From: an uncultured Clostridia bacterium
GTDB lineage: Bacteria; Bacillota; Clostridia; Oscillospirales; Ruminococcaceae
Direction of reading: 5' to 3'
NCBI GenBank assembly: GCA_947625335.1
Contig: CANQNY010000012.1
Coordinates: forward strand, 1-33,982
Length of the DNA stretch: 33,982 nucleotides
The position numbers and the translations under genes are program-made. Shown piece after piece: positions 2,446-21,845 of this stretch (its first letter is position 1; the number at the start of each line of letters is the position of its first letter). The notes under the pieces were generated by a model. It saw nothing but the letters and a program-made list of their open reading frames with translations, was not told the origin of the DNA and did not search any database.

Positions 2446-3354
2446 CTACTGTTCGCCGTACATTTTTAGCTGCAAATTGATTTCCTCTGCCGTTGCAAGC
2501 CCGTCCGAAAACGCCGTCGCGCCGCCCGCGGCAGTTCCGAGTTTCAGCGCGTATTCATAGTCGCCGCCCTGCGCTCCCGCGATAAATCCCGCGACCATGG
2601 AATCTCCCGCGCCGACAGAATTGCGGACCTGTCCTCGGCACGCCGCGGCAGTATGCAGCTTGCCGTTTTCGTCGAGCAGCATCGCGCCGTCTCCCGCTAA
2701 TGACACCAACACGTTTTGCGCGCCCATTTCCCGCAGTTTTTCCGCGCGGGCAGCTATTTCTTCGCGGTTGCCGAGTTTCGCGTCAAAAATCTCCTCCAGC
2801 TCGCGCAGGTTCGGTTTTATCAAAAACGGCTTGTATTTCAGCGTGTTCAGCAGCAGGTCTTTTTGCGCGTCAACAACAAATTTTATATTCCGCCCCGAAA
2901 GCCGTCCGAGAATTTTCTCGTAAATGTCCGCAGGCAGACTTTTCGGAACGCTCCCCGCGAGTACCAGCATATCGCCGTCCGACAGCCGGGAAAGCTTTTG
3001 GAAAAGCTCGGAAATATCCTCTTCGCCGATAACGGGACCGTTTCCGTTAAGCTCGGTTTCCACGGAGGATTTTATTTTAACGTTTATCCTTGAAAATCCG
3101 CTTTTCAGATGAACAAAATCAGTCAAAACGCCCGCTCCCGCAACGCCGTTTTCGATAGCCTGCCCCGTAAAACCCGCGACAAATCCGAGCGCGGTTGACT
3201 TTATCCCAAGCTCGTTCAGAACCAGAGAAACGTTTATTCCCTTGCCGCCGAAGGAGATTTTCTCGTTTTCGGCGCGGTTGACCTCGCCCGCCTGCACATT
3301 ATCGCAAAAAACCGCATAATCGACGGCGGGGTTGAAAGTTACGGTATAAATCAT
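2446..3354 (-). CDS. PfkB-family carbohydrate kinase (1-phosphofructokinase/tagatose-6-phosphate kinase type)
   Basis: MIYTVTFNPAVDYAV, FGGKGINVSLVL, NSVGAGDSMVAGFIAG motifs. Confidence 0.92.
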   Translation of the reverse strand: MIYTVTFNPAVDYAVFCDNVQAGEVNRAENEKISFGGKGINVSLVLNELGIKSTALGFVAGFTGQAIENGVAGAGVLTDFVHLKSGFSRINVKIKSSVETELNGNGPVIGEEDISELFQKLSRLSDGDMLVLAGSVPKSLPADIYEKILGRLSGRNIKFVVDAQKDLLLNTLKYKPFLIKPNLRELEEIFDAKLGNREEIAARAEKLREMGAQNVLVSLAGDGAMLLDENGKLHTAAACRGQVRNSVGAGDSMVAGFIAGAQGGDYEYALKLGTAAGGATAFSDGLATAEEINLQLKMYGEQ

Positions 3355-3509
3355 TGCAAAACCTCCGAAATTACATCTGTTTATATTATAGCGCGAATTT
3401 TTCCGAATTGCAACATTATTGCAACATTTTTCGGAAACCTGCCGAGAATTTTAAATACGAATTCCGCCCGTAACGCCTATTTCGGGCGTTTTTGCTTTGC
3501 AGCGCAGAC

Positions 3510-3538
3510 TTGACATGAATTGCCGTAAGTGGTATAAT
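3510..3538 (+). promoter_or_regulatory. sigma70-type promoter of the 76-aa ORF
   Basis: TTGACA (3510) 17 nt TATAAT (3533). Confidence 0.75.
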
Positions 3539-3590
3539 AAAGTGTAACAGGCTGTTTAAAAAGGCTTATTTGACGGAAAGAGGATAAATT

Positions 3591-3821
3591 ATGGACGCAC
3601 AGGAAGTTATTCAACCGCAGGCAGGTTTTGACGCGCAGAAAGTTGCAGAAATGATAACCGTGACAAATGCAATGTTAGAAAAGGTTCCTGTTGTTGTAAA
3701 TTCGCTGAATTATATGGTAAAAAACGGAAAAACGGGCGTGGGCGATGTTGCGAAAAGCGTTTGGGACAGCATTGCCCAAAACAGCGAAAACATCGCCTCT
3801 TTGAAAGACATCGGAATATAA
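3591..3821 (+). CDS. small hypothetical protein (76 aa)
   Basis: strong upstream promoter, RBS agagga, ATG start. Confidence 0.65.
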   Translation: MDAQEVIQPQAGFDAQKVAEMITVTNAMLEKVPVVVNSLNYMVKNGKTGVGDVAKSVWDSIAQNSENIASLKDIGI

Positions 3822-3877
3822 AAAACGGCATAAAAATAGGCTTTGAGCGGTTCTTTGCCGTCGATGAAAGATTTCTA

Positions 3878-3906
3878 TTGACAAACGGCTTTAAATATGG
3901 TAGAAT
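3878..3906 (+). promoter_or_regulatory. promoter of the binding-protein gene
   Basis: TTGACA 17 nt TAGAAT. Confidence 0.6.
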
Positions 3907-3945
3907 ATATATAGTTATATGTGCAAACAAAGGAGAGGTTTTTAA

Positions 3946-5718
3946 ATGAAATACATAAAGCGTGTTTTGTGTGTAATTTTGTGCGCCGTGCTGCTTTGCG
4001 GGTGCAATTCGGGTTCGGGGGCGAACTCTAAGGGCAAACACGAGCCGATAACTATTCTCTACTCGTCGGATATTGATTTGCTTAAAGAGCTGGTTGCCGA
4101 GAAATATCCCGAAATACAGCTTGAACTTATTCCGTATAACGGGAAAAACTGGTCGCGGTTTACCTGCGATCAGATGATTACGGGGGATATGCCGGATATT
4201 TACAACACGTCGCTTGCGTGGCTTAATTACCCCGAGGAAATGAAAGCTAATCTTTTGGAGCTGTCAAGTTACGCTTTCACCGACAACTACGACCCCACGC
4301 TTTTGTCCCAGCAGGAGCTTGACGGTGGGATATATCTTCTGCCGTCGAAGTATTCCGTGTATTCCTGCGCGTACAACAAGACGTTGTTTGAAAAGCACGG
4401 CTGGAAAGTCCCCGAAAGCTTTGAGGAGCTGAAAGCTCTCGCTCCCGAAATCGAAAAAGCGGGCGTTCGGCTTTCCGTTACCAATTCCTTTAACACGGGG
4501 CAAGGCTTTCAGTATGTTTGCAATCTTGCCGACACAATTGATTTGACGTCGATAAAGGGCGTTCAATGGCAGAAGGATTTCTTAAGCGGCAAAGCCGACG
4601 CGCAAAAGGGTTTCGGCGAGGCAATGGACTACTTGCAGGAATGGGTGGATTTAGGGTTCTTGCAGGGCAGCAATACCCTTGACGGCAAGACCTCGTTCGA
4701 GGTGTTCAGCGAGGGCAATACCGCGTTTGCCGTGGGCGGAGTTGACCACTGGACGCAAAACGAGGACGGTTCGGGCGACGTTTACGCGCCCATGCCGTAT
4801 CTTTCCCGCGACGGCTCTAAGAATATGTACATTACCATGCAGTCGAAGAATTTCGGCATAAACAAAAAGCTTTCCGAAAAAGGAAACGAGCAGAAATTGG
4901 AGGACGCTTTGCACGTTTTGGAACTGCTATCAACCATAGACGGGCAGAATTCGTTTTACAATTCCAACACTACGTATATTTCCTCCCTGCGCGAGTGGGA
5001 AATAGACCCCAAAAGCCCCTATGCGGACTGTATTGACGACATGCGAAACGGTCACACCGCGCCGCTGCTCTACACGGGCTGGGAGCCGATTTTGCCGAGA
5101 ATAGGCGAGGATATTCTCGACTATTTAAACGGGGAATTTACAAAAGAACAGGTTATCGAAAATATGGATACTCTCCGAAACGACTGGCTTTCGCAGGGAG
5201 AAGTCGTTTATTCAGAGGTTGACAGAAAATACGATCAAAAAGAGACCGCGCAGCTTGTCGGGAAAATTTTCGGAGAGGCTGTAAACGCGGACTGCGCTTT
5301 AGTGTCTCTTAATGTCGCGGTGGATAACTGCGCTATTCAAAACGGCGACGGCATAAACGGGTATATTATGCCCCTGCCGCTGACCGACGAGAGAATTGTG
5401 TCCATAATTCCCACGGGTTGGAACGGCAACATTAAAACCGTAACGCTTAACGGGCAGCAAATTAAAGAATTCGCCGAAAAGGGCTATACAATCGAGAAAA
5501 ACGGCAAGTCCGCAACATTCCCTTACGAACTTTTTGTAAAGGGCGGGAAAGAATTGTCCGATGACGAAAAATACACCGTTATGGTTTGCGGCGCGGACGA
5601 GGAACTTTGTACCGCGGGGAATATTCAGGACAGCGGAATACAAGGTCTCGGCGCGTTCAAGGATTTCTTTAAAAATAATGGAAATCCGCCTTTGTCGGAA
5701 GAATTGCTGAACTGGTAA
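3946..5718 (+). CDS. lipoprotein: family-1 extracellular solute-binding domain fused to a 5'-nucleotidase C-terminal-like domain
   Basis: lipobox LLCGC; SBP motifs (GDMPDIYNTSLAWL, YSVYSCAYNKTLFEKHGWKVPESFEEL); C-terminal ~150 aa ADCALVSLNVAVDN...GINGYIMPLPLTDERIVSIIPTGWNGNIKTVTLNGQQIKEFAEKG resembles 5_nucleotid_C. Confidence 0.82.
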   Translation: MKYIKRVLCVILCAVLLCGCNSGSGANSKGKHEPITILYSSDIDLLKELVAEKYPEIQLELIPYNGKNWSRFTCDQMITGDMPDIYNTSLAWLNYPEEMKANLLELSSYAFTDNYDPTLLSQQELDGGIYLLPSKYSVYSCAYNKTLFEKHGWKVPESFEELKALAPEIEKAGVRLSVTNSFNTGQGFQYVCNLADTIDLTSIKGVQWQKDFLSGKADAQKGFGEAMDYLQEWVDLGFLQGSNTLDGKTSFEVFSEGNTAFAVGGVDHWTQNEDGSGDVYAPMPYLSRDGSKNMYITMQSKNFGINKKLSEKGNEQKLEDALHVLELLSTIDGQNSFYNSNTTYISSLREWEIDPKSPYADCIDDMRNGHTAPLLYTGWEPILPRIGEDILDYLNGEFTKEQVIENMDTLRNDWLSQGEVVYSEVDRKYDQKETAQLVGKIFGEAVNADCALVSLNVAVDNCAIQNGDGINGYIMPLPLTDERIVSIIPTGWNGNIKTVTLNGQQIKEFAEKGYTIEKNGKSATFPYELFVKGGKELSDDEKYTVMVCGADEELCTAGNIQDSGIQGLGAFKDFFKNNGNPPLSEELLNW

Positions 5719-5725
5719 CAAGCGA

Positions 5726-8374
5726 GTGAAAAACATGAAGAAAACTATCCATATAGATCAAAAATATCGCAAAATATTTATAATTGCCGCTGCCGCCGCT
5801 GTGGCTGCGGCGATTTGCGGCTTTTTTATTATAAGTCAGCTGCATACATATCTCAACAACACGGTGTATACCGAGCGGATAAATCAGCTTTCGGAGATAA
5901 CCGCGCAGGTTTTCGACAGCACGGAACGGACGATTTCGCAGTACTGGAACGAGGCTTTGGCGGTAAAAAAACGGTCAGCCGCAAATAACCCGAAAACGTC
6001 CTCGGAGATTTTGGCGTTTTTGAAAAATGAATACAACGTCGGGCATTACCCGGAGGACGAGAGCATACCCGTACTGTTCGACGAGGACGGAAGGTTGTTT
6101 ACGCCCGACGGCGATATGGGCGTTATAAGCGATATTGACCCTCTGGCGAATTGTGAGGATAGGGTTAGTTTTATCAAATACAACACCATGAACGTCGAAA
6201 ACGACATTATCTTCGCGTACAAGCTCGATAGTCCGATAACAATTTCCGACACGGGGAAAACTATGCGTTTCGCGGGGATAAGCGTCGGATTGGAAACTAT
6301 CGGCGCAATTTTCCGCAGCCCCACCTACAACGGCAACAACAGCACATATATTTTAAGCAGCGACGGCTCTAAACTCTATGTTGACGAAACAAAATACAAA
6401 AATCTCGTGCCGGGGTATAATGTTTTCAATGTTATGCAAAAGGCGGGAGAGAAGGAAAATATCGATTTCGCAGAGCAGCTTGATAAGCTCGAAACCGAGG
6501 GGCAGGTTCTTTCCCATATCAAAATAGAGGGAACTGAATGTTTCTATGCTATGCGAAAAATGCAGGAAAACGACTGGATAGTTATGTATGTCTATCCCGC
6601 GCAGGAAGTGGCTCAAGGGACGGTGTCCGTCGTAAATTCCGCGCTCAGGACTGCGGTCGTGACGGCGGTGTTTTTCCTCGTCGCTATTATAATCATTATG
6701 CTGTGTATGACAAAGGCTTTGCATACAAGGAGCTTACTTCAGGCGGAGCATATCGCGGGAAAAAAGCTGCAGGAGCTTAACAAACAGCTTGAACAGGCAA
6801 AGCACGAGGCGGAGGAGGCGTATCTTGTCTCTCAGCGCGCAAACCACGCCAAAACCGCGTTTTTAAACAATATGTCGCACGATATCCGCACGCCCATGAA
6901 CGCCATTATAGGCTTTACGTCCCTTGCCGCGACGCATATTGACGACAAGGACTCCGTCAAGAATTATCTCTCGAAAATTATGGTGTCAAGCGAGCATTTG
7001 CTTTCGCTTATCAACGACGTTCTCGATATGAGCCGAATTGAAAGCGGGAAAGTAAAGATTGAAGAAAAAGAATGTTCTCTGCCGACAATTCTGCACGATT
7101 TGCGGAATATCCTACAGTCCGATATTAAGGCGAAAAGGCTTAATTTTTATATAGATACGGTCGACGTCGAACACGAGGATATTGTCTGCGACAAGCTGCG
7201 CTTAAACCAAATCCTGATAAATATTATGTCCAACGCCGTGAAATTCACGCGTCCGGGAGGCACGGTTGCACTTCGCGTGGTTGAAAAGCCGAACGCTCCG
7301 GAGGGGTATGCCGATTATCAGTTTATTGTCCGCGATACGGGTATAGGCATGAGCGAGGATTTCGTCGGGAAAATTTTCGAGCCGTTTACGCGCGAGGAAA
7401 ATTCGACCGTCAGCGGTATTCAGGGCACGGGGCTTGGAATGGCGATAACGAAAAATATCGTCGATATGATGAACGGCACGATCTCCGTTCAAAGCAAGCT
7501 TGGCGAGGGCACGGAATTTACCGTATCGGTGCGTTTCGCGGTAAGCGGGAAAGAGCAAAAAGTCACCGTTATTAAAAACCTTGAGGGTTTCCGCGCGCTT
7601 ATTGCCGACGACAGCATGGACAGCTGTACAAACGTTGAAAAAATGCTCCGCGTAATCGGCTTGCGGGCGGAGTGGACGACTTCGGGAAAAGAGGCTGTCT
7701 ACCGTGCAAAATACGCTGCGGAGCAAAACGACCCGTTCAGGGTTTACATAATCGACTGGTTAATGCCCGATATGAACGGCGTTGAAGTCGTTCGGAGAAT
7801 TCGTAAAGAAGTCGGCGAGACCGCGACTATCATAATCCTCACCGCCTATGACTGGACGGATATTGAATCCGAGGCAAGAGAGGCGGGGGTTACGGCGTTC
7901 TGCGCGAAACCACTGTTTATGTCCGAGTTGTACAACGTTTTGCAAAACGCTGACAACAGCAATTCCGAGCAAGACAAGGACATTGTTCCCGAACAATTCG
8001 CAGGCAAAAAGGTGCTGCTTGTCGACGACGTGGAGCTGAACCGCGAAATAGCAGTCGCTATCCTCGAAGAGGCGGGGATTAACGTTCAAACGGCGGTAAA
8101 CGGGCAGGAGGCGGTTGACGTCGTGAAAAACAGCAGCGGCGATATAGATCTTGTGCTGATGGACATTATGATGCCGATTATGGACGGCTATCAGGCTACC
8201 CGCGAAATCCGCAAATTAGACGACCCTGTTCTGGCTAATATTCCGATAGTAGCAATGACCGCAAACGCGTTTGAGGAGGACAAAATAGCGGCTCTTGACG
8301 CGGGCATGAACGACCACCTCGCAAAGCCGTTCCAGATTGAAAAGCTGTATCAGGTGATGAAACAATTTCTCTGA
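5726..8374 (+). CDS. hybrid sensor histidine kinase with two receiver domains
   Basis: N- and mid-TM segments flanking an extracytoplasmic sensor, HisKA NNMSHDIRTPMNAIIGF, HATPase DTGIGM/GTGLGMAI, REC1 IIDWLMPDMNG, REC2 DLVLMDIMMPIMDG; start GTG 5726 or ATG 5735. Confidence 0.95.
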   Translation: MKNMKKTIHIDQKYRKIFIIAAAAAVAAAICGFFIISQLHTYLNNTVYTERINQLSEITAQVFDSTERTISQYWNEALAVKKRSAANNPKTSSEILAFLKNEYNVGHYPEDESIPVLFDEDGRLFTPDGDMGVISDIDPLANCEDRVSFIKYNTMNVENDIIFAYKLDSPITISDTGKTMRFAGISVGLETIGAIFRSPTYNGNNSTYILSSDGSKLYVDETKYKNLVPGYNVFNVMQKAGEKENIDFAEQLDKLETEGQVLSHIKIEGTECFYAMRKMQENDWIVMYVYPAQEVAQGTVSVVNSALRTAVVTAVFFLVAIIIIMLCMTKALHTRSLLQAEHIAGKKLQELNKQLEQAKHEAEEAYLVSQRANHAKTAFLNNMSHDIRTPMNAIIGFTSLAATHIDDKDSVKNYLSKIMVSSEHLLSLINDVLDMSRIESGKVKIEEKECSLPTILHDLRNILQSDIKAKRLNFYIDTVDVEHEDIVCDKLRLNQILINIMSNAVKFTRPGGTVALRVVEKPNAPEGYADYQFIVRDTGIGMSEDFVGKIFEPFTREENSTVSGIQGTGLGMAITKNIVDMMNGTISVQSKLGEGTEFTVSVRFAVSGKEQKVTVIKNLEGFRALIADDSMDSCTNVEKMLRVIGLRAEWTTSGKEAVYRAKYAAEQNDPFRVYIIDWLMPDMNGVEVVRRIRKEVGETATIIILTAYDWTDIESEAREAGVTAFCAKPLFMSELYNVLQNADNSNSEQDKDIVPEQFAGKKVLLVDDVELNREIAVAILEEAGINVQTAVNGQEAVDVVKNSSGDIDLVLMDIMMPIMDGYQATREIRKLDDPVLANIPIVAMTANAFEEDKIAALDAGMNDHLAKPFQIEKLYQVMKQFL

Positions 8375-8572: not shown

Positions 8573-8582
8573 CAACCCTTCC

Positions 8583-8638
8583 TTTTTGTTACAATCTAAA
8601 TAATCCGCGCAGCGGATTACTACTACTGTTTACTGATT
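8583..8638 (+). repeat. dispersed intergenic repeat, copy A
   Basis: tttgttacaatctaaataatccgcgcagcggattactactactgtttactg; reverse complement recurs at 15449-15502; contains ATCCGC-N3-GCGGAT hairpin. Confidence 0.85.
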
Positions 8639-9702
8639 ACTTTTTCCAACAGCACATACCCGTACTCAAAATCTTTAAGCTGCCCCATATAACCCTTGCT
8701 GCAGTTTCCCTCGCGGATAAGCGCGCCCACGGACGGCACGCGCTGTTTTTTAAGCTCCCGACGGACAACCTCGCAAAGCGCGCGCCCTAAGCCCTTGTGC
8801 TTTGGGTCTACGCCCATATAAAGCATTACATACGAGCGCGGCTTTCGCTTTTCCAAAAGAATACGAAGTTTTTTAAACGTGTGCAGTTTCCCGTAAACGC
8901 TGTTTTTGAAATTCGGTACGGACACGAAAAATCCCACGGGTTTTCCCTTAAAAAACGCCATTTTCACCATGCTGTAATTCAGAATATGCCGCAAATATTC
9001 GCAAATCGAGCAGAATTCCTCCTCGGTTATGCGCTTGTACACGGGAAAACGGCTGTACAGCTCTATCATCAGAGAATACACCTCGCGCAGGGTCTTGTCA
9101 AATTCGCTCTCGTCGGGGGATTTTATCGTGTAGCCCTCGCCGAGCTTTTCTTCAAGCCGCGCGGCGTATTTTTCGCAGCCTTTGTCGCTCTCCACTATCT
9201 TGTAGTGATTTGAGCTGTAACGCTTTATCACCTCAAATCCGCTTTGATACCACAAATTCGGGTAATAATCCTTGTTGTACGGCTCGCCCGTATACGGCGA
9301 ACCGAAACGGTCGGTTTTAAGCCTGTATTTTATCCAGAAAGAGCAGTCGACGGGTCCCGTCAGTTTTTCGCGCCCGTTTTTCGCGGCAATTTCCTCCGCC
9401 GTTTTAAACAGCAAAGCCGCGGCGTCGCTGTCGTTTTCGCTCTCGAAAAAGCCGATATACGCCGCGCTGTCGTTCGGGTAGAGCGTAACCACGGCGCGGC
9501 TTACGGCGCGGTTTTCGCGGTAAATAAGTATGGGAATAACGGTGAAATATCGGCTTAAAACATGCGTGCCGTTTAAGAGCGCAAGTTCCTCTTCGGGGCT
9601 TTGCATAAGCTCCTTTGCCGAATAAATTCTCTTTGGCAGCGCGAGAAAATCGCGCGTTCTTTTTTTGTCGCCGCTGTCAAAAACGACCGCCCTCAAATTC
9701 AT
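8623..9702 (-). CDS. GNAT-like N-acetyltransferase protein
   Basis: C-terminal GNAT core YVMLYMGVDPKHKGLGRALCEVV; start taken at MNLRAVVF, 1 nt downstream of the previous gene. Confidence 0.75.
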   Translation of the reverse strand: MNLRAVVFDSGDKKRTRDFLALPKRIYSAKELMQSPEEELALLNGTHVLSRYFTVIPILIYRENRAVSRAVVTLYPNDSAAYIGFFESENDSDAAALLFKTAEEIAAKNGREKLTGPVDCSFWIKYRLKTDRFGSPYTGEPYNKDYYPNLWYQSGFEVIKRYSSNHYKIVESDKGCEKYAARLEEKLGEGYTIKSPDESEFDKTLREVYSLMIELYSRFPVYKRITEEEFCSICEYLRHILNYSMVKMAFFKGKPVGFFVSVPNFKNSVYGKLHTFKKLRILLEKRKPRSYVMLYMGVDPKHKGLGRALCEVVRRELKKQRVPSVGALIREGNCSKGYMGQLKDFEYGYVLLEKVISKQ

Positions 9703-9703
9703 T

Positions 9704-12052
9704 TCAAACGACCTCCGCCGTGTTCCTTTTGATAACCGAAATCCGTCCCGTTGCTCCGTCGACCTCGACAATATCTCCGTTTTTGAGGATACTTGCCGCG
9801 AATTCGACGCCCACGACAGCGGGTTTTTTCAGTTCCCGCGAAATTATCGCCGTGTGTGACAAAAGCGAGCCTTTTTCCGCGATAATTCCTGCCGCCCCGA
9901 CAATGAGAAATACCCAGCCCGGATCGGTCATTTTGGCGACGATTATTTTTCCCGTTGTGTCGGGACAAGCTGTCGGGTCGGTGACAACGAGAACCTCGCC
10001 GCGCGCTTTTCCCGCCGAACACGGCGTGCCTTCAAGCGCGTCTGCAAAGCTGTTTGTTTCCGTCCTGCCGACAGATTTCGGAGCTCGGTCAAAGACCTTT
10101 TCGGCGAAGACAAGGCGCGTATACGCGGGCAGTTCCTCAAAGCGGCGATACATTTCGCGCCGCTGTTCGACAATGCTTTTCATATCCTTTTTGCATTTTA
10201 CAGCCGTTTCGATTTCGGAATATTCGAGATAAAAAATATCCCTCGGCGCGGAGATAACGCCCGCCCCGCAAAGCTCCCCGCCCACTTTAAGCATCATCGA
10301 GCGCATCATGCCGTAAAGCCTCGAACGATTAAGACGGGACTTTTCGCGGTTTTTGATACCGACAGCCGCCCGTTTCGCGAATATTCTGCACAATCCCCGC
10401 GGCACGTCTTTTTGCTCGGAAACGCTCGGAGCAGCCGCATTCGTTTTCGCATATTGAACGATTTTCGCGGCGAGAAGTTCGGGATTTGTCCGAAACGTCA
10501 GGCTTTCAAGCTTAAGCTCCTCGGCGTTGCGGTCGCCGTACAGCTTGATGTATTCCGAAAGTCTGTCCGACAGCTTGCCGTTTTTCATATACTCGCGAAA
10601 ATCCGCCGTGCTTTGAATTTTCTCCAGCCGCGAAAGCTCGCCGCTTTCCTTTGCAATTTGCGACAGTTTTATAAGTTCCGTCACGGGTTTCATGCTCTCT
10701 ATGCCGTTTAGCCCCGAAATAAGGCTGTTCGCTCTCGCGGGGTCGGACTTCAGGCGCGATTTTAAAAGTCCCGTGTAAATAAACGTGTACATATCGTTTA
10801 CCAAGGTCAGATCCCATTTTTCGGTGACCTTGTCAAGAACGTTCTGATAATGCGAAAGAATTTCCTCGGCACTCGCCAAATTCAAATCCACCGACTCGAA
10901 AAACCGTATCATTTCCCTAAATTCGCCGTCAAGTTTTTCCATAAGCCTCGGACATGCGCTCATTAAATAAATAAACGACAGCGTGACCTTAAAATGCGTT
11001 ACAAAGCCGATTTTTCGGGAAAGCTGCGATGTGACAGCCTTGTTTTTCACGCCCAGCATTTCCTGCCACACGGGAATTATTTTCCTGCTGAACGGCAAAA
11101 ACAAAATTACATCATACCAATTGCTTATGCGGTAGTAAATTCGCCCGCTTGACGCGTCCACCATATTTCTGAGAATTTCGTCCGCCATAGCGACGGTTTC
11201 AGGCTCGCGCGTCAGCCGCAGCAAAACCGAGCGGAAAACGCGGTAATACGCCGTTCTGATAAAGCTTTGCGTAAGCGGCAGCGTTATTCCGGGGTAACTT
11301 TCGACAATATTGCTGTTATCGAGAACAATGGGAAAATCACATTTCAGAGAGGTTATCGGGCGCGCCTGCAAAATAAATATTTCGCCGTTTTTAATTGCAA
11401 ATTCAACGTCGCATTCATGCCCGAAAAGATTTTTTATCCGTTTTGAAAGTTCAATAAGCTCTAAAAGCACGCCTTCGGATATTTTCGGGGAATTCTCCGT
11501 CTGCTCGCAGAAATAAAGCCCGTCGGTGGTGTTGTAGTAATAAGCGGAGGTGGGAGCTTTGTCCTCGACGACATTGTCGCCCGTCCCAAAGCCTATTACC
11601 ACCACCGTCTCGTTTAGTATACCCTGCGGATTTGCCGTGAAAATAACGCCCGACAGCTCGGCGTTTATCATCTCCTGAACGACCGCGCAGACGGTGATTT
11701 TTTCGGGCGAAATCCCGTTCTTTTTGCAGTATTCGCAAAATCCCGCGCTTTTCGGAACGGCGCGAACGCGTTTTACCGCGTCGTTTATCCCGCTTAAAGA
11801 AAGTCCCAGCTCGGTGTGAAATTGTCCCGCAAACGACGCTTCTGCGCCGTCCTCCGCGCTTGCCGACGAGCGCACCGAAACCGTTTTATTGTCGCCGAAA
11901 AATTTCACCGCATAGCTTGCAACATCGCAGTTATCTTCCCCGAAAACGCAGAAAAACGGCGGGATATTAAAGCCGTTTTCCGACATTTTAAAGAGATTTC
12001 CCGCCTTTGCGCCGACGGGTTGTCCGTTGTAATTATCCGCACCGATTATCAT
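9704..12052 (-). CDS. phosphoenolpyruvate synthase/pyruvate-phosphate-dikinase-like protein
   Basis: SVRSSASAEDGAEASFAGQFHTELG (ATP-grasp PPDK N-domain) and GIIAEKGSLLSHTAIISRELKKPAVVGVE (swivelling His domain). Confidence 0.9.
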   Translation of the reverse strand: MIIGADNYNGQPVGAKAGNLFKMSENGFNIPPFFCVFGEDNCDVASYAVKFFGDNKTVSVRSSASAEDGAEASFAGQFHTELGLSLSGINDAVKRVRAVPKSAGFCEYCKKNGISPEKITVCAVVQEMINAELSGVIFTANPQGILNETVVVIGFGTGDNVVEDKAPTSAYYYNTTDGLYFCEQTENSPKISEGVLLELIELSKRIKNLFGHECDVEFAIKNGEIFILQARPITSLKCDFPIVLDNSNIVESYPGITLPLTQSFIRTAYYRVFRSVLLRLTREPETVAMADEILRNMVDASSGRIYYRISNWYDVILFLPFSRKIIPVWQEMLGVKNKAVTSQLSRKIGFVTHFKVTLSFIYLMSACPRLMEKLDGEFREMIRFFESVDLNLASAEEILSHYQNVLDKVTEKWDLTLVNDMYTFIYTGLLKSRLKSDPARANSLISGLNGIESMKPVTELIKLSQIAKESGELSRLEKIQSTADFREYMKNGKLSDRLSEYIKLYGDRNAEELKLESLTFRTNPELLAAKIVQYAKTNAAAPSVSEQKDVPRGLCRIFAKRAAVGIKNREKSRLNRSRLYGMMRSMMLKVGGELCGAGVISAPRDIFYLEYSEIETAVKCKKDMKSIVEQRREMYRRFEELPAYTRLVFAEKVFDRAPKSVGRTETNSFADALEGTPCSAGKARGEVLVVTDPTACPDTTGKIIVAKMTDPGWVFLIVGAAGIIAEKGSLLSHTAIISRELKKPAVVGVEFAASILKNGDIVEVDGATGRISVIKRNTAEVV

Positions 12053-12054
12053 AC

Positions 12055-12954
12055 TTAAACCTTCCCGAAAATCAAAAACGCCGCGACAGTAAGGAGCATC
12101 ATCGTTTCTTGAATGTAGGTGTACCGCTCCACCTTATCAACGATTTTAAAGCGGGTCGGGTCTTTCATAAACTGCGCGAATTTCAGCGTCATCCAGCCCG
12201 TGTTGAGCAGAAGAGCGCAAACGGAGATCTTGTTTAAATTCCACACGAGAAGAACATTTGTGAGAATATCCACCCAAGTCAGCACCAGCACGAACACCGT
12301 CGACTTTTTATAGCCGAACAGTTTGGAATATGTAACATACTCCGTCTCGTCTTTCGGAGCGCGGATTTTCCGCGAGACCTCCCAGATAAGCGCGGGGAAG
12401 TAGAGCGTCATCATCGCAAGAAAATTGGTAAGCGTAAGCGCGGGAAGTCCGTATTTTATGCAGGTAAACGAGATGATGTATACGTTCAAAATCATCTGCA
12501 CGGGGTTGTGCGTAACGAGGGCTAAAGGCAGGCTTTTCTGTATTTTTTTCTTGCTGAAAAACCACAGCGACATAAGCGTCCCGTAAACATACAAAAACAG
12601 GAAAAAGAGGAAGTTGTTCATAAAAACGGCGTTGAGGGCGACTGTCACCGCAATGAGAATTCCCACGAATATTGCAAGGTCCTTTTTCTTAACGCGCCCC
12701 GACGGCAGAGGTCTTGTCGGGAACAGGCGGCAGTCAAGCTCGTAATCCTTGAAGTCGTCGGCAATCCGCAGCCAGAGCAGAAAGCTGAACACCGTAAACC
12801 CGCCGATAAACTCCTGATAATTTATCTTGAAATCCGACACGCCGTTGTTAAGCAGAACGATAAAATAAATCTCGCCGAACACGATAATTCCGAGCAAAAG
12901 CCGAGGGATTATCGGATACATTTCCTTGAAATAGATGTGAAGTCGTTTCAGCAT
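12055..12954 (-). CDS. UbiA-family prenyltransferase-like membrane protein
   Basis: multiple TMs; RIADDFKDYELDCRLFPTRPLPSG aspartate-rich motif; second motif SRKIRAPKDETEYVTYSKLFG. Confidence 0.85.
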   Translation of the reverse strand: MLKRLHIYFKEMYPIIPRLLLGIIVFGEIYFIVLLNNGVSDFKINYQEFIGGFTVFSFLLWLRIADDFKDYELDCRLFPTRPLPSGRVKKKDLAIFVGILIAVTVALNAVFMNNFLFFLFLYVYGTLMSLWFFSKKKIQKSLPLALVTHNPVQMILNVYIISFTCIKYGLPALTLTNFLAMMTLYFPALIWEVSRKIRAPKDETEYVTYSKLFGYKKSTVFVLVLTWVDILTNVLLVWNLNKISVCALLLNTGWMTLKFAQFMKDPTRFKIVDKVERYTYIQETMMLLTVAAFLIFGKV

Positions 12955-13802
12955 TTTGTCCTCCCAATTTTTTCGCCCGTTTTAACAAGCGTTTCTATGC
13001 CGTTTTCGGAATTTTTCAGAATATCCCCGCAAACCTCTATAACACCGCGTTTGAACAGCTGAATTATTGTCGAACCGCCAAACGAAAAATAGCCCTTTTC
13101 GTCCATTCTCGAAAAATCGCCGACGTCGTGATTTGTGATTTTTCCGACCTGCAGCGCCCCGACTTCGATTTGAATTATCTCCCCGAAATGCCGAGTTAAA
13201 AGCCTTGAGCAAACGCGGTGGTTGCGCGAAAAAACGCGGTATTTTTCCGAAATCGGGCGCACCGTGTGCAGTTCTCCGGGAATTTCCTCCGTCTGCAAAA
13301 TTTTTCCGTCATCGCAAAATACATACCTATGGCAGTCCTCGACCGCCAGCCTGTAAACAAGGCAAATTCCCCCCGCAAACCCAGAAACATCAAGCTTTCC
13401 CGCAAGCTCCGACAGCGTGTATACGCTGCGCTTTATCCGAAGTTCAAGCTCGTCCGTTATCGGGTAAACCGAAAGCCTTCCGCAGCACGGCGCGATAAGC
13501 TCGTCCGCTTTGCAGTCGGTCGTAAAGCGGCATTTCCGCGTGAAAAATTCGTCAAAGCTGTGAAATTCGGCGGTGTCGCAGGCTGACAAGTCGATGTTAT
13601 ATTTTTCAACAAACGGGCGAATTTTCCCCGTCGAAAATCTGCTTTTCATAAACGCGCCGTAAATTTTTGAATAAATTCCGCGGCAGAAAAACGCCTTAAG
13701 AAGAATTCTCCCTGCCGCCGTGTTGTAGAGAAAATCAAGACCCTTTGCACCATATTCAATTTCCTCAAAAAACGCACCTGCGGCTCTGTCGTAAATCGTC
13801 AT
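12948..13802 (-). CDS. psd: phosphatidylserine decarboxylase
   Basis: SFDEFFTRKCR, HYRxxCDG-like VEDCHRYVFCDDG, autocatalytic GGST (YFSFGGSTIIQLF); start at MTIYDRAAG. Confidence 0.9.
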   Translation of the reverse strand: MTIYDRAAGAFFEEIEYGAKGLDFLYNTAAGRILLKAFFCRGIYSKIYGAFMKSRFSTGKIRPFVEKYNIDLSACDTAEFHSFDEFFTRKCRFTTDCKADELIAPCCGRLSVYPITDELELRIKRSVYTLSELAGKLDVSGFAGGICLVYRLAVEDCHRYVFCDDGKILQTEEIPGELHTVRPISEKYRVFSRNHRVCSRLLTRHFGEIIQIEVGALQVGKITNHDVGDFSRMDEKGYFSFGGSTIIQLFKRGVIEVCGDILKNSENGIETLVKTGEKIGRTKC

Positions 13803-14416
13803 AAAATAATATCTCTCACCAGAATAAGCGCGATTATCCCGACTGCAAGCGCGCCGAAAATAACATACCACACGCCGCGCGGCTTTGCGATTTTCACGTT
13901 AAGGATAAACAACACCGCCATTACCGCGAATTCCGCCGCCCAGACTACAACGGCGTTAAATTCGGGAAAAAATCCCAAAGCCGCGTAGGTCACGGGAATA
14001 ATTAGCGCGGCATAAGTTACGGGAAGTCCGTCGTAATGCGTGCGGACGCCCTCCGCCGCAGCCGAGGTGTTGAACCATGCAAGCCGAATTATCCCGCACA
14101 AAATATAGCCTAAAAGAAACGGATATTTTGCAAATCCTATGCCCTCTAAAAGCCTTATACCCAGCACCGCGGGCAGAGCCAGAAAATCCACAACGTCCGC
14201 GAGACTGTCTATCTGCACGCCGAATTCCTGCTCGGCGCGGTCGCGTTTGCACCGCCGCGCGATTACCCCGTCAAAAAGATCGCATATCCCCGCGCAAACC
14301 AGCGCTATCATAGCGGCGGCATTCATATTTTCAACGGCGAAAGCTATCCCCGCCGTTGCCGCCGCAACGCCGACGTATGTTAAAATAACTGATTTGTTGT
14401 ATTTACCGATAAACAT
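13799..14416 (-). CDS. pssA: CDP-alcohol phosphatidyltransferase, probably phosphatidylserine synthase
   Basis: CDP-OH motif CDLFDGVIARRCKRDRAEQEFGVQIDSLADVVDF; adjacent to psd. Confidence 0.9.
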   Translation of the reverse strand: MFIGKYNKSVILTYVGVAAATAGIAFAVENMNAAAMIALVCAGICDLFDGVIARRCKRDRAEQEFGVQIDSLADVVDFLALPAVLGIRLLEGIGFAKYPFLLGYILCGIIRLAWFNTSAAAEGVRTHYDGLPVTYAALIIPVTYAALGFFPEFNAVVVWAAEFAVMAVLFILNVKIAKPRGVWYVIFGALAVGIIALILVRDIIL

Positions 14417-14423
14417 TTTTTCC

Positions 14424-15008
14424 TCACAAGTTTTTGCGAATTCGTGCTGCGTATAATATTGAACTTACGGCAAGATGCGTTACCGCGCCGAGGAGAATAT
14501 ACGAAAAATATTCTGCGACCGTCATCGGGAACAACGCCGCGTACACTAAAGTCACTCCGAAAAGCGAATCTATCTGGTCAACGACAAAAAACACCGCGCC
14601 CTTTATCCCACGCTCGGTTTTCCCGCACGGAATATCAAGACGCCGCTTTACAAAGCTGTTTGGCAGCTCAAAAAGAACGTACGCAAAACCCATTGCCGCT
14701 CCCGCTGCGAGATTAAACAGGGGAGTGTTCTCAAACCGCGCATAGATAAGGCAACGTTCGGGAAATTTTGTACACACAGCACCCCAAAGCACCTGCGCTG
14801 CCGCCGCGAAAACAGTCATTCCGAAAAATCCCGCCCAGGTCTTGTTGTCCCCGAAAACGCGTTTTCCGTCGGAAAGCGTTTTCCCGCCGTCGATCGGGCG
14901 GTTTATCCGCTTATAAAGCGGCGTTTTCACGAACAGCATATTAAGTATTCCCGCGATGATGACGGGCGTTATGGTTATGTACATTTTCAAGATTGTCATA
15001 AATATCAT
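14424..15008 (-). CDS. CDP-archaeol-synthase (CarS)-like CDP-lipid synthase
   Basis: INRPIDGGKTLSDGKRVFGDNKTWAGFFGM and CGKTERGIKGAVFFVVDQIDSLFG motifs, hydrophobic. Confidence 0.82.
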   Translation of the reverse strand: MIFMTILKMYITITPVIIAGILNMLFVKTPLYKRINRPIDGGKTLSDGKRVFGDNKTWAGFFGMTVFAAAAQVLWGAVCTKFPERCLIYARFENTPLFNLAAGAAMGFAYVLFELPNSFVKRRLDIPCGKTERGIKGAVFFVVDQIDSLFGVTLVYAALFPMTVAEYFSYILLGAVTHLAVSSILYAARIRKNL

Positions 15009-15358
15009 AGCAAATTTGAGATCAAAATAGCTCCCTCAGCCCCGAAGAAAGCCACTCCCGACACGCAGACAGCCGCCGCGGCAACGTCCTTTATAAATTT
15101 CACATTTTTGTCAATCTCAGAACAAAAGCTGTCGCACAAACGTTCTATGGCGGTGTTTATGTACTCCGCGGAGAATGCCGCACAGGTAAGCGCGAGCAGA
15201 ATTATGTAATCGTAAAAGCCCGAAGATGTGAGGATATTCAGCGCAAGAAAAACAAGCGCGATGCCCGAATAGATCTTAAGGTTGCGCTCCGCGAGAAACC
15301 CGCTTGCCACGCCCCTCAGCGCGCATTTTACGCTTTCCAGAAAGTTTTTGTTTTTCAT
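15005..15358 (-). CDS. dgkA: diacylglycerol kinase/undecaprenol kinase family
   Basis: ERNLKIY, EYINTAIERLCD...DKNVKFIKDVAAAAV motifs; start moved to M at 15358 because a -35/-10 pair overlaps the longer ORF. Confidence 0.9.
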   Translation of the reverse strand: MKNKNFLESVKCALRGVASGFLAERNLKIYSGIALVFLALNILTSSGFYDYIILLALTCAAFSAEYINTAIERLCDSFCSEIDKNVKFIKDVAAAAVCVSGVAFFGAEGAILISNLL

Positions 15359-15386: not shown

Positions 15387-15415
15387 ATTATAACACAATT
15401 CGACAGATTTGTCAA
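15387..15415 (-). promoter_or_regulatory. promoter of the dgkA-GNAT operon
   Basis: on minus strand TTGACA (15415-15410) 17 nt TATAAT (15392-15387). Confidence 0.8.
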
Positions 15416-15448: not shown

Positions 15449-15502
15449 ATAGTGAACAGTAATAGGTATCCGCTCCGCGGATAATTTAGATTGTTACAAA
15501 GA
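15449..15502 (-). repeat. dispersed intergenic repeat, copy B (inverted relative to copy A)
   Basis: reverse complement ctttgtaacaatctaaattatccgcggagcggatacctattactgttcac. Confidence 0.85.
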
Positions 15503-17060
15503 GGAAATGTTGACGAGTTTTCGCCCACACTTCCGCCGTACAGAAAACAACAAACCCAGCAGAGCGACCTCTGCTGGGAAATGGTGCAGGACATTGTCCT
15601 GCTGGCTCCCCCAAACCCCTTAAATCCGAAACGTAAGTACTTAATTTGAGAGGAATCGTCTCAGATTCCTCTCTGCAATTAAAATTTATTACAGCCTTAT
15701 CATCATACACATAAATCGAATTCACGAATGTATCTATAATCCGCTGCTTGTTATCTTGACTTGCAAGGTTAAGGTCAATCATCTTGGACAGCCAAAACTT
15801 GACCTGTTCCCGCGTCAAAATCTGCGTTTGAATTTCCTCGCGGGCGATCTTAACTTCAAGGTCTGTCTTCTGCGCAGTCAACTCGTCCATACGCCTTTTG
15901 GTAGTCGGATTTATAATGCCTTGCTCTATCGCGCGAGCCATATTCTCCAAACTTTTTTCCACTTCCTCCAACTCCCGATGCAGCAAAGGGACAGCCGTGT
16001 TTTCTTTAGCCTGCCACATCATCAAATGCTCCACCAAACTATCCATAGCATTACACTCAAAAACGCTCTGAACGGTCTTCCGCATAACTAATTCTTCAAT
16101 GGCGTCTTTCCGCACCGCTTTTCTATGACATCCACGCTTTTTCTTAGCGGTAACACATTTATAATAGTGGTAAACTTTGCCCGATTGACTTGTCCCGCCC
16201 TCGCCAACCATTAGCGCACCACAATCGCCGCACATTAACTTTGACGTAAGCAGATACCTCTCATCAGCTTTATAGCTTGACGGCGCATACTTGTTTTTCT
16301 CAAGCCTGTCCATGGCAAGCGCAAACAATTCCTTTGAAATGATTGACGGCACACCGTTCGGCACTACCACATCACGATAACTATACTCGCCTATATATTT
16401 CCTATTCTGCAAAAGTGCCGTAACCGTAGTCTTACCTATTGGCTTACCTTGTGAAGAGCGCACTCCGTTATCATTAAGATATGTCACAATATCTTTGACT
16501 TGTCTGCCGTTGACATACATCAGAAAAGCCTCTTTAATAAACGGTGCGGTCAGCTCGTCAATCTGATAGTGCTTGCTCTCGTCAATCTTGTAACCAACAG
16601 GAACAAACCCTCCGTTGTATTGGCACTTCAAAGCGTTCTCGGGCATACCCCTTATGACTTTTTCCGAAAGCTCCGCCGAATAATATTCCGCATACCCCTC
16701 AAGCACTGACTCCAGAATAATTCCCTCCGCGCCATCAGATATAGCTTCCGTTGCCGAAATGACCTTCACGCCGTTCTTGCGCAGCACCGCCTTATAGTGC
16801 GCGCTGTCATAACGGTTGCGCGCGAACCTGTCCAGCTTCCAGACTATAACCATATCGTAAAGTCCTCCGGAACTCTCCTTAACCATTCGCTGAAATTCGG
16901 GACGATTGTCCGTTTTCGCCGACACCGCCCTGTCAATGTACGAGCCAACAAGCGTGTAGCCTTTTCGCATAGCGAACTCGCGGCACTCGCGCAACTGCCC
17001 CTCTATGCTCTCCTCGCGCTGATTATCGCAGGAATACCGCGCGTAAATTACTGCTCTCAT
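15486..17060 (-). CDS. large serine site-specific recombinase (resolvase, Recombinase and zinc-ribbon domains)
   Basis: MRAVIYARYSCDNQREESIEGQLRECREFA, WKLDRFARNRYDSAHYK, YLLTSKLMCGDCGALM; the C-terminal ~30 aa may be read-through. Confidence 0.95.
   Translation of the reverse strand: MRAVIYARYSCDNQREESIEGQLRECREFAMRKGYTLVGSYIDRAVSAKTDNRPEFQRMVKESSGGLYDMVIVWKLDRFARNRYDSAHYKAVLRKNGVKVISATEAISDGAEGIILESVLEGYAEYYSAELSEKVIRGMPENALKCQYNGGFVPVGYKIDESKHYQIDELTAPFIKEAFLMYVNGRQVKDIVTYLNDNGVRSSQGKPIGKTTVTALLQNRKYIGEYSYRDVVVPNGVPSIISKELFALAMDRLEKNKYAPSSYKADERYLLTSKLMCGDCGALMVGEGGTSQSGKVYHYYKCVTAKKKRGCHRKAVRKDAIEELVMRKTVQSVFECNAMDSLVEHLMMWQAKENTAVPLLHRELEEVEKSLENMARAIEQGIINPTTKRRMDELTAQKTDLEVKIAREEIQTQILTREQVKFWLSKMIDLNLASQDNKQRIIDTFVNSIYVYDDKAVINFNCREESETIPLKLSTYVSDLRGLGEPAGQCPAPFPSRGRSAGFVVFCTAEVWAKTRQHFLFVTI
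15555..15578 (-). terminator. Rho-independent terminator-like hairpin, minus strand
   Basis: CCCAGCAGAG-gtcg-CTCTGCTGGG followed by TTTGTTGTTTT on the minus strand. Confidence 0.65.
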
Positions 17061-17167
17061 GTTAACGACCTCCTTTTTATAATATGATTATACCATACCC
17101 AAAAGCGTTTGTCAATGCTTTAAAGCGATAAATCACAGATTTTTTTTTACTTTCGGGAACGATACCT

Positions 17168-17329
17168 TTAAGCTGCACTATCAGTACCCTGTTCGACTTC
17201 TCGAAGATGTTCCTCCCAGATTGCCTTACCACTATCCGAAGAAAAGAATTCTTGCATAGCCGGCAACAAACTTTGCGCCAGCGCGTCAAGCTGCTCCTCG
17301 AAAAGAACGTGCTTCTTCTGATTTTCCAT
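17168..17329 (-). CDS. small mobile-element-associated protein (53 aa)
   Basis: MENQKKHVLFEEQLDALAQSLLPAMQEFFSSDSGKAIWEEHLREVEQG; RBS gggggagac. Confidence 0.6.
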   Translation of the reverse strand: MENQKKHVLFEEQLDALAQSLLPAMQEFFSSDSGKAIWEEHLREVEQGTDSAA

Positions 17330-17358
17330 TTTGTCTCCCCCTTGAAAATTTTTGCCCT

Positions 17359-17731
17359 TCACTTATAGGAAAATTTTCGGCGATTTATTAGGGGGTAAGA
17401 ACAAAATTTTTTCTATTCTACTTTTTGTACAAAATGTTCACTGCCAATATGTGCATTGCAACAAACTTAAAATAAATTTTTCATCTCCCCCTAATTTTCC
17501 CACTGATTTTTTTCCTATAAGTGAGGGGGGTAACACAATCTGCGGTTTGCCGACGCAGAAAATTTTTGAGGGGGTTTGCAGGAGCAGACCAAAAACGCCA
17601 AAACGAGGAATACGTATTCTTTCGATTTTTGTATGCATAGCAAGCCATAGAAAATCCCGTATACTTTGGGATTTTCTTACATTTTGAGTGCAGACCCCCT
17701 CAAAATATTTCTTAGGGAACCCAACCCTAAG
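17359..17731. other. candidate oriT/relaxosome region with nested inverted repeats
   Basis: TCACTTATAGGAAAA (17359) / TTTTCCTATAAGTGA (17510); TTTTTGAGGGGGTTTGCA (17563) / TGCAGACCCCCTCAAAA (17689); hairpins TCTGCG/CGCAGA, AAAATCCC/GGGATTTT, CTTAGGG/CCCTAAG; directly upstream of mobC. Confidence 0.6.
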
Positions 17732-17797
17732 AGTAATACCCCCTAAATTGATAGGCTTTGTCTATCACCATTTCAATTAACAGGAGGTAGAAAAATT

Positions 17798-18050
17798 ATG
17801 AGAAAGTATAAGCAAGTAAAACGCAAGGAGGTCATATTCTCGACAGATGAATGGAAGTTGATTGAGGAACGGGCTGCTTCGGTTCTGATGAAAACGGGAA
17901 CATTCATAAAACGTATGTCCCTCGACGGGCATATAACCTATTTTAATATGTCCGAGGTAGGCGAAGTGATGAAAGCCTTGCGTATCATTGTGCGAACATT
18001 AACCAGATTGCGAAAACAGCGAACGAGATTAACAGCATTTATACCGAGGA
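17798..18050 (+). pseudogene. MobC-type relaxosome protein, frameshifted and 3'-truncated
   Basis: MRKYKQVKRKEVIFSTDEWKLIEERAASVLMKTGTFIKRMSLDG...EVMKALRII then, in another frame, CANINQIAKTANEINSIYTE. Confidence 0.8.
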
Positions 18051-18350
18051 GCGCTCCACGTCCGAACGCGTTGTTACGGAGTAAATTCTTTCCTCGTCGG
18101 TGTCGAGTTCAATGTCCGAGAGCAGCGTGTTGTAATAATCATCGTCCCGACCGAAAAGCTCGCACATATGATTTCCATAAACGCCGTCAATCCTGCGGCG
18201 TAGGAGCATGCGTCCTCGACCGTGAACGCATAGTCCATTTCGTTGGCGCTGTCGGTGAGTATCAGCTTGTCGCCTTTTTTCAGTCCGTACTTTTCGGCAG
18301 TCGCTTTTTCGAGGACAAGGCTAATTTTTCCGCCGTGAAGTGTCTGAACA
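18050..18350 (-). pseudogene. internal fragment of an FtsX/MacB-like ABC transporter permease
   Basis: SVQTLHGGKISLVLEKATAEKYGLKKGDKLILTDSANEMDYAFTVEDACSYAAGLTAFM then, frameshifted, MCELFGRDDDYYNTLLSDIELDTDEERIYSVTTRSDVERSS. Confidence 0.7.
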
Positions 18351-18551
18351 GAAGCTTTTAAATTCCTCAAAGGGTTGTTCAACGATCGCCGCGAACAAGT
18401 CCTCCTTATCCTTAAAAAAGAAGTACAATGCGCCGATAGTCACTTCTGCGTCGGCGCATATCTTCCTCAGGGAAGCTTTCGTGCAGACCTTTTCAGAGAA
18501 TTCCGCGCGGGCACTTTCGATAAGCCTTTCCTTAGTTTCTTTAATATCCAA
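18350..18551 (-). pseudogene. N-terminal fragment of a TetR-family regulator
   Basis: MDIKETKERLIESARAEFSEKVCTKASLRKICADAEVTIGALYFFFKDKEDLFAAIVEQPFEEFKSF, then sequence turns into the permease fragment. Confidence 0.8.
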
Positions 18552-20421: not shown

Positions 20422-20784
20422 CTACCTTGCGGCTGCATCCGCATCGTTGTTTTCATATTCGATTATCAGCTTATTCGGTAAGCATATTATGGGAATTGCC
20501 GTTGAGTCCAGCCAACCCGCGTTTACACAGACCTTGTCCGGACAATCGGCTTCCAATACGCGTATTTTATGATCCTTAATTTCAAGCGTGTTCTTTTTTC
20601 CGTTATATTCAACAACAATGGTTTTGTTCGGGGATTTGGAAAGATCTATAGTATACAAAAGCTCTCCGTCGCTTTTTATTTTTACAATATCACCCGAAGG
20701 TGCGTTCAGCATAACAACAGATATTACTGCCGAGGCAAGAAAAACTACAGCGCAGGCAGTGATCAAAAAAACGGTTTTTTTCAT
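20422..20784 (-). CDS. NusG domain II-containing membrane-anchored protein
   Basis: N-terminal TM, NTLEIKDHKIRVLEADCPDKVCVNAGWLDSTAIPIICLPNKLIIE. Confidence 0.85.
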   Translation of the reverse strand: MKKTVFLITACAVVFLASAVISVVMLNAPSGDIVKIKSDGELLYTIDLSKSPNKTIVVEYNGKKNTLEIKDHKIRVLEADCPDKVCVNAGWLDSTAIPIICLPNKLIIEYENNDADAAAR

Positions 20785-21842
20785 CTGTATATCACCTCAA
20801 GCTTGTTTTGCTCATATGGTCTTGAAAGGGAAAAATTACTTTGTATTCCCTCTGTAACGGTAATTTCTCCGGCATCCGTAATGATTATCATTTCAAAGTC
20901 GCAGTATTTGCGCCAATGTTCAACAGCGGCTTCTTTACCCATAACGAAAAGCGCTGTTGAAAGCGCATCGCAGAGTACCCCGCTGTCGCCGATCACTGTG
21001 ACCGACGCTATCCCGTTATTGACGGGATAACCGTCAAACGGACTGATTATATGACAATACCGCGTTCCATCATCTCCGGTGAAATATCTCTCATAGCTTC
21101 CCGAGGTTATAACCGCTTTATCGACAATTTCAAGATTTCCGATATAGGTCTGCGGTAAATTCGGATCGGTCAGCGCGATCTTCCATGCGCTTCCGTCGGG
21201 CTTGCTTCCGAGCGCGTGGACGTTTCCGCCCAAAGAAATTATTGCAGAGGTAATTCCGTTTTCCTTAAACAATGAAATAATTTTGTCGCTTGTATAACCT
21301 TTGGCAACCGCGCCAAGATCGATCATATAACCCGAGGGCAATTGAATGCTGTTCTCCGCTGCCCAAACAGCTGAATAATTTACATTTGTAAGCAGTGAAC
21401 GGATATTCTCGGGAGTCGGAATTTTGTAATCTCCGGTAGTAAATCCCCACTCCCGCAATATCGGATAGATCGTTATATCCAATGCGCCGTTTGTTCTTTC
21501 GCACAAGTCAAGCGCGTTTTTTATAAGCTCCACACAATCGCAATTTAACTCGATCTTTTCGCCTTGTGCGTTGTTCAATCGGGAAATATCGCTGTCCGGT
21601 AATGTGACCGAAAGCTCCTTCTCCAGCATTTCAATAATTGCTTGTGCGGAGTTCAGCGGCTTATCATCGGCACAATACGCTTTAAGTGCCATATAGGTGT
21701 CCATTGCAAACAATTCCGCAGTATGCAGCGATACATTATCACTTTGCGCTGCTGAAATATCCGATGCCGATTCGTGAGCGGAATCCGCGCAGCCGCAAAA
21801 AAATAATATACAGCATACGAAAATAACAACAAATTTCCTCAT
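20781..21842 (-). CDS. apbE: FAD:protein FMN transferase lipoprotein
   Basis: lipobox FFCGC; DTYMALKAY, VDLGAVAKGYTSD-like IDLGAVAKGYTSD, SLGGNVHALG, YCHIISPFDGYPVN. Confidence 0.95.
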   Translation of the reverse strand: MRKFVVIFVCCILFFCGCADSAHESASDISAAQSDNVSLHTAELFAMDTYMALKAYCADDKPLNSAQAIIEMLEKELSVTLPDSDISRLNNAQGEKIELNCDCVELIKNALDLCERTNGALDITIYPILREWGFTTGDYKIPTPENIRSLLTNVNYSAVWAAENSIQLPSGYMIDLGAVAKGYTSDKIISLFKENGITSAIISLGGNVHALGSKPDGSAWKIALTDPNLPQTYIGNLEIVDKAVITSGSYERYFTGDDGTRYCHIISPFDGYPVNNGIASVTVIGDSGVLCDALSTALFVMGKEAAVEHWRKYCDFEMIIITDAGEITVTEGIQSNFSLSRPYEQNKLEVIYR

Positions 21843-21845
21843 AAC

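Follow-up and report, generated by a model that had tools for sequence, protein, structure and literature searches.

Why should a compact run of phospholipid head-group genes also hold a UbiA-type prenyltransferase, a dikinase and an acyltransferase, and what would such an operon make? The question is raised by seven genes in the window, by which we mean the whole analysed stretch of 33,982 nucleotides from an uncultured Clostridia bacterium of the Ruminococcaceae. An earlier note on this DNA had read a full head-group route (kinase, CDP activation, serine transfer and decarboxylation) with an archaeal-type CarS-like synthase, a UbiA prenyltransferase, a PEP-synthase-like enzyme and a GNAT, and had taken the combination to suggest a modified lipid or a prenyl-derived aminolipid. 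Knowledge of the lipids made by Lachnospiraceae and Ruminococcus in gut and rumen is sparse, and gut-bacterial lipids can act on host immunity. In the open-access literature we found no paper describing the gene set. The answer we favour, with functions assigned from homology, is that the operon would encode a pathway devoted to a membrane lipid, in which the head-group part can be exchanged, a reading to which we give a little under an even chance.

Layout and surroundings of the operon

The seven genes are all intact and run contiguously on the minus strand from 15358 to 8623, where the earlier note had placed a compact operon; neighbours either overlap or are separated by no more than 7 nt, the intergenic gaps being -4, +7, -4, -7, +2 and +1 nt in the order from DgkA to GNAT. 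The features, in positions of the window, are:

15387..15415, minus: likely operon promoter with extended -10, ahead of DgkA (TTGACA-17-TATAAT; called by sigma-70-like consensus match only, 12/12)
15005..15358, minus: DgkA-like lipid kinase (DAGK_prokar), a paralogue (PF01219, 71.5 bits)
14424..15008, minus: CarS-like CDP-lipid synthase (PF01864, 53 bits)
13799..14416, minus: PssA, CDP-lipid:serine phosphatidyltransferase (PF01066, 45.8 bits)
12948..13802, minus: Psd, phosphatidylserine decarboxylase (PF02666, 118.4 bits; NF001941, 223 bits)
12055..12954, minus: UbiA-superfamily membrane prenyltransferase, PRK13592 family (NF010118, 457 bits)
9704..12052, minus: dikinase of rifampin-phosphotransferase architecture (PF01326 and PF00391, no PEP-binding barrel)
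8623..9702, minus: tandem-GNAT acyltransferase of the YghO/bacterial-ceramide-synthase kind (AF2 model and Foldseek; relatives beside serine palmitoyltransferase-type genes)

The operon lies on contig C12 of a 2.24 Mb genome (178 contigs, 93 % complete). The entire operon is flanked by a 62-nt inverted repeat (8573-8634 and 15451-15512, arms 84 % complementary), the core of which is a palindrome that recurs at scattered sites, 16 copies being present in the genome when up to three mismatches are allowed; none was found in the nearest related loci searched. The inverted repeat may be a repeat element, or it may record how the operon came to be inserted. Directly upstream, a recombinase/mobilisation region (15486-18361) contains a CcrB-like large serine recombinase, whose 134 bits fall far short of the cut-off, and then a NikA-like mobilisation protein (17798-18361); the two read as the remains of an integrated mobile element adjoining the patchily distributed operon. 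Elsewhere in the window Cas4 and Cas1 genes are found at the contig edge (173-1901), and an ApbE flavin transferase adjoins an FMN-binding domain protein (20781-23186), a pair that suggests an extracellular flavoprotein system.

The head-group genes

The complete set of predicted activities for the proposed head-group route is present. DgkA has a second copy in the genome, on contig C1 (99.7 bits). The CarS-like protein clears the Pfam cut-off of 22 bits and its profile matches the CDP-archaeol synthase structure 5guf (E 4e-11), but it reaches only 70.9 bits of the 148 required by the NCBIfam CDP-archaeol synthase equivalog. Its gene is single copy and within the operon, and a separate normal CdsA is encoded on contig C164. 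In PssA the motif DGxxAR..G..D..D is intact (DGVIARRCKRDRAEQEFGVQIDSLAD) and its positions are invariant; the best NCBIfam model for this protein is archaetidylserine synthase, at 76 bits against a cut-off of 240. The GST autocleavage motif of Psd is likewise intact (FGGSTI). Since the sole Psd hit and the sole strong PssA hit in the genome are both the operon copies, the same two enzymes may also make ordinary PE.

UbiA, dikinase and acyltransferase

The UbiA assignment was borne out by a score above the family cut-off (457 against 443 bits for NF010118), by the kept donor motif 1 (DDxxDxxxD..RPLPSGR type, here ADDFKDYELD..RPLPSGR) and by the predicted membrane fold. The AF2 model (pLDDT 87) has the UbiA fold and finds the archaeal DGGGP synthase 6m31 as its best Foldseek match (TM 0.68), with 7bpu also matched; the sequence scores 19.6 bits against the DGGGP synthase family model, with a cut-off of 296, and the sequence profile had no match among PDB sequences. 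The second Asp-rich motif is altered and reads E-x2-RK..E instead, so that a prenyl diphosphate donor is not certain. No other protein of the set comes near UbiA in conservation (median distance 0.30 for UbiA and 0.52-0.61 for the others), which suggests a strict substrate.

The dikinase (782 aa) carries a PPDK_N domain at 52-174 and a mobile His domain at 700-769 that ends the protein. The order is thus ATP domain, central acceptor domain and C-terminal swivelling His domain, which is the architecture of the rifampin phosphotransferase (RPH) type. There is no C-terminal PEP/pyruvate-binding barrel, which rules out a PEP synthase or PPDK function, and the PEP-synthase likeness claimed earlier is limited to the ATP and His domains; RPH-type enzymes are often misannotated as PEP synthases (PMC4844700). 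The cut-offs of all named families were missed, including those of NF004882 (791 bits, cut-off 850) and of the NCBIfam rifampin phosphotransferase equivalog (195 bits, cut-off 999), and in the profile comparison RPH structures rank first, namely 5fbs (277 bits) and 5hv1. RPH-Lm has His825 on the swivelling domain, with Arg666, Glu667 and Lys670 (PMC4844700), and the operon dikinase has His, Arg, Glu and Arg at the corresponding positions; its SHTAIISREL and NREKSR stretches align with THGAVIARE and YREYPK of RPH, and the aligned residues, among them His733, Arg569 and Glu570, are invariant in 23 sequences. From the architecture and the aligned catalytic residues, the dikinase is expected to transfer the beta-phosphate of ATP to a hydroxyl group on its acceptor.

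No Pfam or NCBIfam match was obtained for the operon GNAT itself, nor a credible match of its profile among PDB sequences. Its orthologues match PF00583 and its AF2 model (pLDDT 94) shows the tandem-GNAT fold, with 2wpw, itself a tandem GNAT, as Foldseek match (E 1e-14), so the GNAT of the earlier reading stands. A tblastn search against plasmids gave a relative in Rubrobacter radiotolerans (28 % identity, E 3e-15) that sits between a serine palmitoyltransferase gene, whose product scores 444 bits with NF047600 (below the cut-off of 640, yet the best model), and an NAD-dependent reductase; in Pseudomonas veronii a relative whose gene is named yghO lies near an 8-amino-7-oxononanoate-synthase-type gene. 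In Caulobacter an N-acyltransferase and an acyl-ACP synthetase belong to the ceramide gene set (PMC11324152), and an acyl-AMP ligase is present in the cluster at 27 clostridial loci. By analogy with these ceramide-type relatives and the Caulobacter set, and given the acyl-AMP ligase, amine acylation would be the likeliest role of the GNAT. No serine palmitoyltransferase or ceramide reductase was recognised among the genes that recur inside the cluster at 83 loci, where outer neighbours were clustered unnamed.

Conservation of the gene set across genomes

A UbiA profile scan of 84,980 species genomes gave 180 hits, from which 80 loci were kept, mostly in Lachnospiraceae, Ruminococcus, Oribacterium, Lachnoanaerobaculum and Pseudobacteroides. 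Counting was confined to the 56 loci with sufficient flanking DNA. At these UbiA-retrieved loci the dikinase was found 56 times, GNAT 54, CarS 45, DgkA 40, Psd 26, PssA 25 and the acyl-AMP ligase 18 times, and 30 loci had no linked Psd. Three architectures can be told apart: CarS with Psd (26 loci), CarS without linked Psd (19) and the core of UbiA, dikinase and GNAT only (11). The earlier note had proposed co-occurrence with the PE genes as the check on its reading, to be refuted if the three genes were not co-conserved with them; with the core at 54-56 of 56 loci, CarS at 45 and Psd at 26, this refutation largely failed.

The gene order is permuted among loci (e.g. L059, L065, L069 and L082) and the surroundings differ. 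The order in L059 and L065 is CarS-dikinase2-UbiA-dikinase-GNAT-ligase-PssA-Psd, and in Lachnoanaerobaculum dikinase-GNAT-DgkA-CarS-PssA-Psd-UbiA. This argues that selection keeps the set together, rather than recent common descent of one region. Distances between the genes correlate (dikinase against GNAT r 0.88, against DgkA 0.90 and against Psd 0.90), to which the kinship of the compared genomes contributes.

To counter the bias of retrieval through UbiA, 398 genomes of the family of the window were searched with CarS instead. Thirteen strong matches were obtained, four already known and nine new. Among the nine, UbiA is in the cluster at six, and three are on short contigs that end beside the dikinase or PssA gene, so that all 13 matches lie in a cluster of the UbiA/dikinase/GNAT type wherever the contig is long enough to judge. 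CarS was absent from all six other genomes of the genus of the window and UbiA was present in 4 of 149 family genomes, from which we conclude that the module is patchy and probably moving horizontally. Sampling of 399 genomes across the phylum gave no further member of this UbiA, only weak generic UbiA matches.

Dikinase genes vary in their own right. A distinct dikinase paralogue (~835 aa, without the SNIVESYPG signature) follows CarS in L007, L008, L059, L065, L068, L071, L076, L077 and L089, and the loci with this second paralogue have no DgkA in the cluster. In L009 (contig C197 of genome G021) a core dikinase without ATP-binding domain (5759-7333) is accompanied in the same operon by a second, complete dikinase (2989-5247). 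The pair recalls two-component dikinases, of which phenylphosphate synthase, itself a dikinase with a C-terminal His domain, is an example. In L081 (Roseburia inulinivorans) three fragments (9908-12026) stand for the dikinase gene, so that either the draft sequence is in error or the gene is broken.

Linkage of the core to the PE genes

DgkA and CarS stay beside the core when PssA and Psd are elsewhere, CarS being kept at the 19 loci mentioned above that have no linked Psd; this links CDP activation to the core and not to PE. Genomes with CarS and no linked Psd have Psd elsewhere in 18 of 20 cases and PssA in 4 of 4 tested. The 13 core genomes without linked CarS lack CarS genome-wide, and in 7 of these 13 neither PssA nor Psd was found, three of the seven being in records not labelled MAGs; as many of the genomes are metagenome assemblies, such absences are approximate. 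From this linkage and the seven genomes it appears that DgkA and CarS follow the core and that PssA and Psd are useful, not obligatory; the seven genomes further indicate that the core product is independent of this head-group route.

Relatives outside the Clostridia

A plasmid of the alphaproteobacterium Roseinatronobacter carries a row of genes for UbiA, dikinase, a DUF3419 protein, an uncharacterised membrane protein, GNAT and an acyl-AMP ligase. Its UbiA (26 % identity, E 2e-6) has NF010118 as best NCBIfam match, its dikinase carries the same DNSNIVESYPG signature, and the DUF3419 protein is found in place of PssA/Psd. DUF3419 is the family of BtaA, which makes homoserine-headed betaine-lipid precursors; on this basis the DUF3419 protein is predicted to be another head-group enzyme on the same core. 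For the membrane protein (P0003) a phytol/dolichol-kinase-like identity, considered from an RKxxH motif, was set aside, as Pfam gave no support.

In Streptomyces clavuligerus a UbiA-dikinase pair lies beside an AfsA hotdog protein, an ICMT-type membrane methyltransferase and an oxidoreductase, a context which looks more like a small-molecule cluster. Dikinase matches in Peptoclostridium, Rubrobacter tropicus and haloarchaea had no UbiA annotated adjacent to them. The Roseinatronobacter and Streptomyces pairs point to an old partnership of UbiA and dikinase with varying companions.

A possible pathway and its alternatives

That dozens of gut bacteria carry UbiA, dikinase and GNAT as a set, and that parts of the set recur in two other phyla, suggests that they probably make an undescribed membrane lipid. 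In the pathway that we have in mind the RPH-type dikinase would phosphorylate an alcohol or enol (ATP to AMP and Pi via a phospho-His), UbiA would attach an isoprenoid, or another chain activated as its diphosphate, to an acceptor, and GNAT, supplied by the acyl-AMP ligase where present, would N- or O-acylate the same backbone, a step parallel to that of ceramide synthase acting on a long-chain base. DgkA would then phosphorylate the lipid alcohol, CarS make the CDP form, PssA add serine and Psd decarboxylate it to ethanolamine, and the end product would be a phosphoethanolamine-capped non-standard lipid. We infer the step order of dikinase, UbiA and GNAT as well as the identity of donor and acceptor. 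The aminolipid suggested by the earlier note is plausible in this light: the kinship of GNAT to ceramide-synthase-like N-acyltransferases strengthens "aminolipid", while the second motif of UbiA leaves the prenyl donor uncertain. The more specific proposal, that the core, UbiA-dikinase-GNAT(-acyl-AMP ligase), builds an undescribed lipid class common in gut and rumen bacteria, is tentative and we regard it as doubtful. It envisages an isoprenoid- or ether-bearing N-acyl backbone, ceramide-like, that in Clostridia would receive a phosphate, CDP activation and an ethanolamine cap, and in alphaproteobacteria a cap from a BtaA-like enzyme.

Alternatively, one promoter could serve two products, an ordinary PE operon and an independent prenylated, acylated small molecule made by UbiA, dikinase and GNAT, with the linkage due to co-regulation or joint transfer. 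The core-only loci without PE genes, the separability of the core in the three architectures and the company of the Streptomyces pair would all fit with this, but DgkA and CarS are tied to the core even with PssA and Psd elsewhere, and clusters that have re-formed in new orders still hold PssA-Psd inside (L059 and L065), so that we consider two products possible but doubtful. It is also conceivable, if unlikely, that the head group of ordinary PS/PE made from diacylglycerol is decorated, GNAT and the acyl-AMP ligase N-acylating the PE/PS amine (N-acyl-PE type), with UbiA and the dikinase serving to prepare or modify the group that is transferred. GNAT is indeed related to amine N-acyltransferases, and the clostridial and alphaproteobacterial companions would both give an amine-bearing head group (serine/ethanolamine, and homoserine if DUF3419 is BtaA); the absence of both PssA and Psd from 7 of 13 core-only genomes and the fact that DgkA-CarS follow the core, not PssA-Psd, speak against it.

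An archaeal-type ether phospholipid, with UbiA as DGGGP synthase, CarS as CDP-archaeol synthase and PssA/Psd as archaetidylserine synthase/decarboxylase, is very improbable. The Foldseek matches of UbiA to 6m31 and 7bpu, the match of CarS to 5guf and the best-scoring model of PssA all point that way, but the archaeal family cut-offs were missed by all three proteins, no GGGP synthase (PcrB) was found in the genome or in three same-family genomes tested, and that route has no place for dikinase, GNAT or DgkA. Of the "archaeal-type CarS-like synthase" the CarS-like domain therefore remains, and the archaeal ether-lipid role falls. An ordinary PE operon with chance neighbours, for which the complete route and the single copies of PssA and Psd could be quoted, is ruled out as an explanation for the entire operon by the three core genes together at 54 of 56 loci, by the 30 of 56 without linked Psd and by the same clusters being retrieved with CarS independently of UbiA, and it has next to no chance of being correct.

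The dedicated lipid pathway, with a core making the lipid and exchangeable capping enzymes, is the simplest account of all contexts seen. The module is a defined gene set that occurs in cultured species (Roseburia inulinivorans) and predicts a new lipid, and the UbiA-dikinase partnership spans three phyla. The database names PEP synthase and CDP-archaeol synthase are here corrected; uncorrected, they would mislead metabolic models.

Comparison with known systems

The operon shares with the PE pathway (CdsA-PssA-Psd) the complete set of activities with motifs intact, but has a CarS-like enzyme replacing CdsA, though CdsA is encoded elsewhere in the genome. With the archaeal CDP-archaeol/archaetidylserine route it has in common the CarS fold family and the PssA subgroup, and it differs in the lack of a GGGP synthase and in missing all family cut-offs. 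UbiA is by score a full member of the NF010118/PRK13592 "prenyltransferase" family of the UbiA superfamily, which carries no assigned substrate. The dikinase has the domain order and the catalytic His, Arg and Glu of rifampin phosphotransferase and of PigC/RedH, but its acceptor domain has diverged and has a conserved signature of its own, LDNSNIVESYPG. Finally, GNAT is a homologous tandem GNAT of bacterial ceramide synthase and YghO, although only 21-28 % identical to that group, and the acyl-AMP ligase that accompanies it at the 27 loci may be compared with the sets of ceramide genes in Caulobacter and Rubrobacter.
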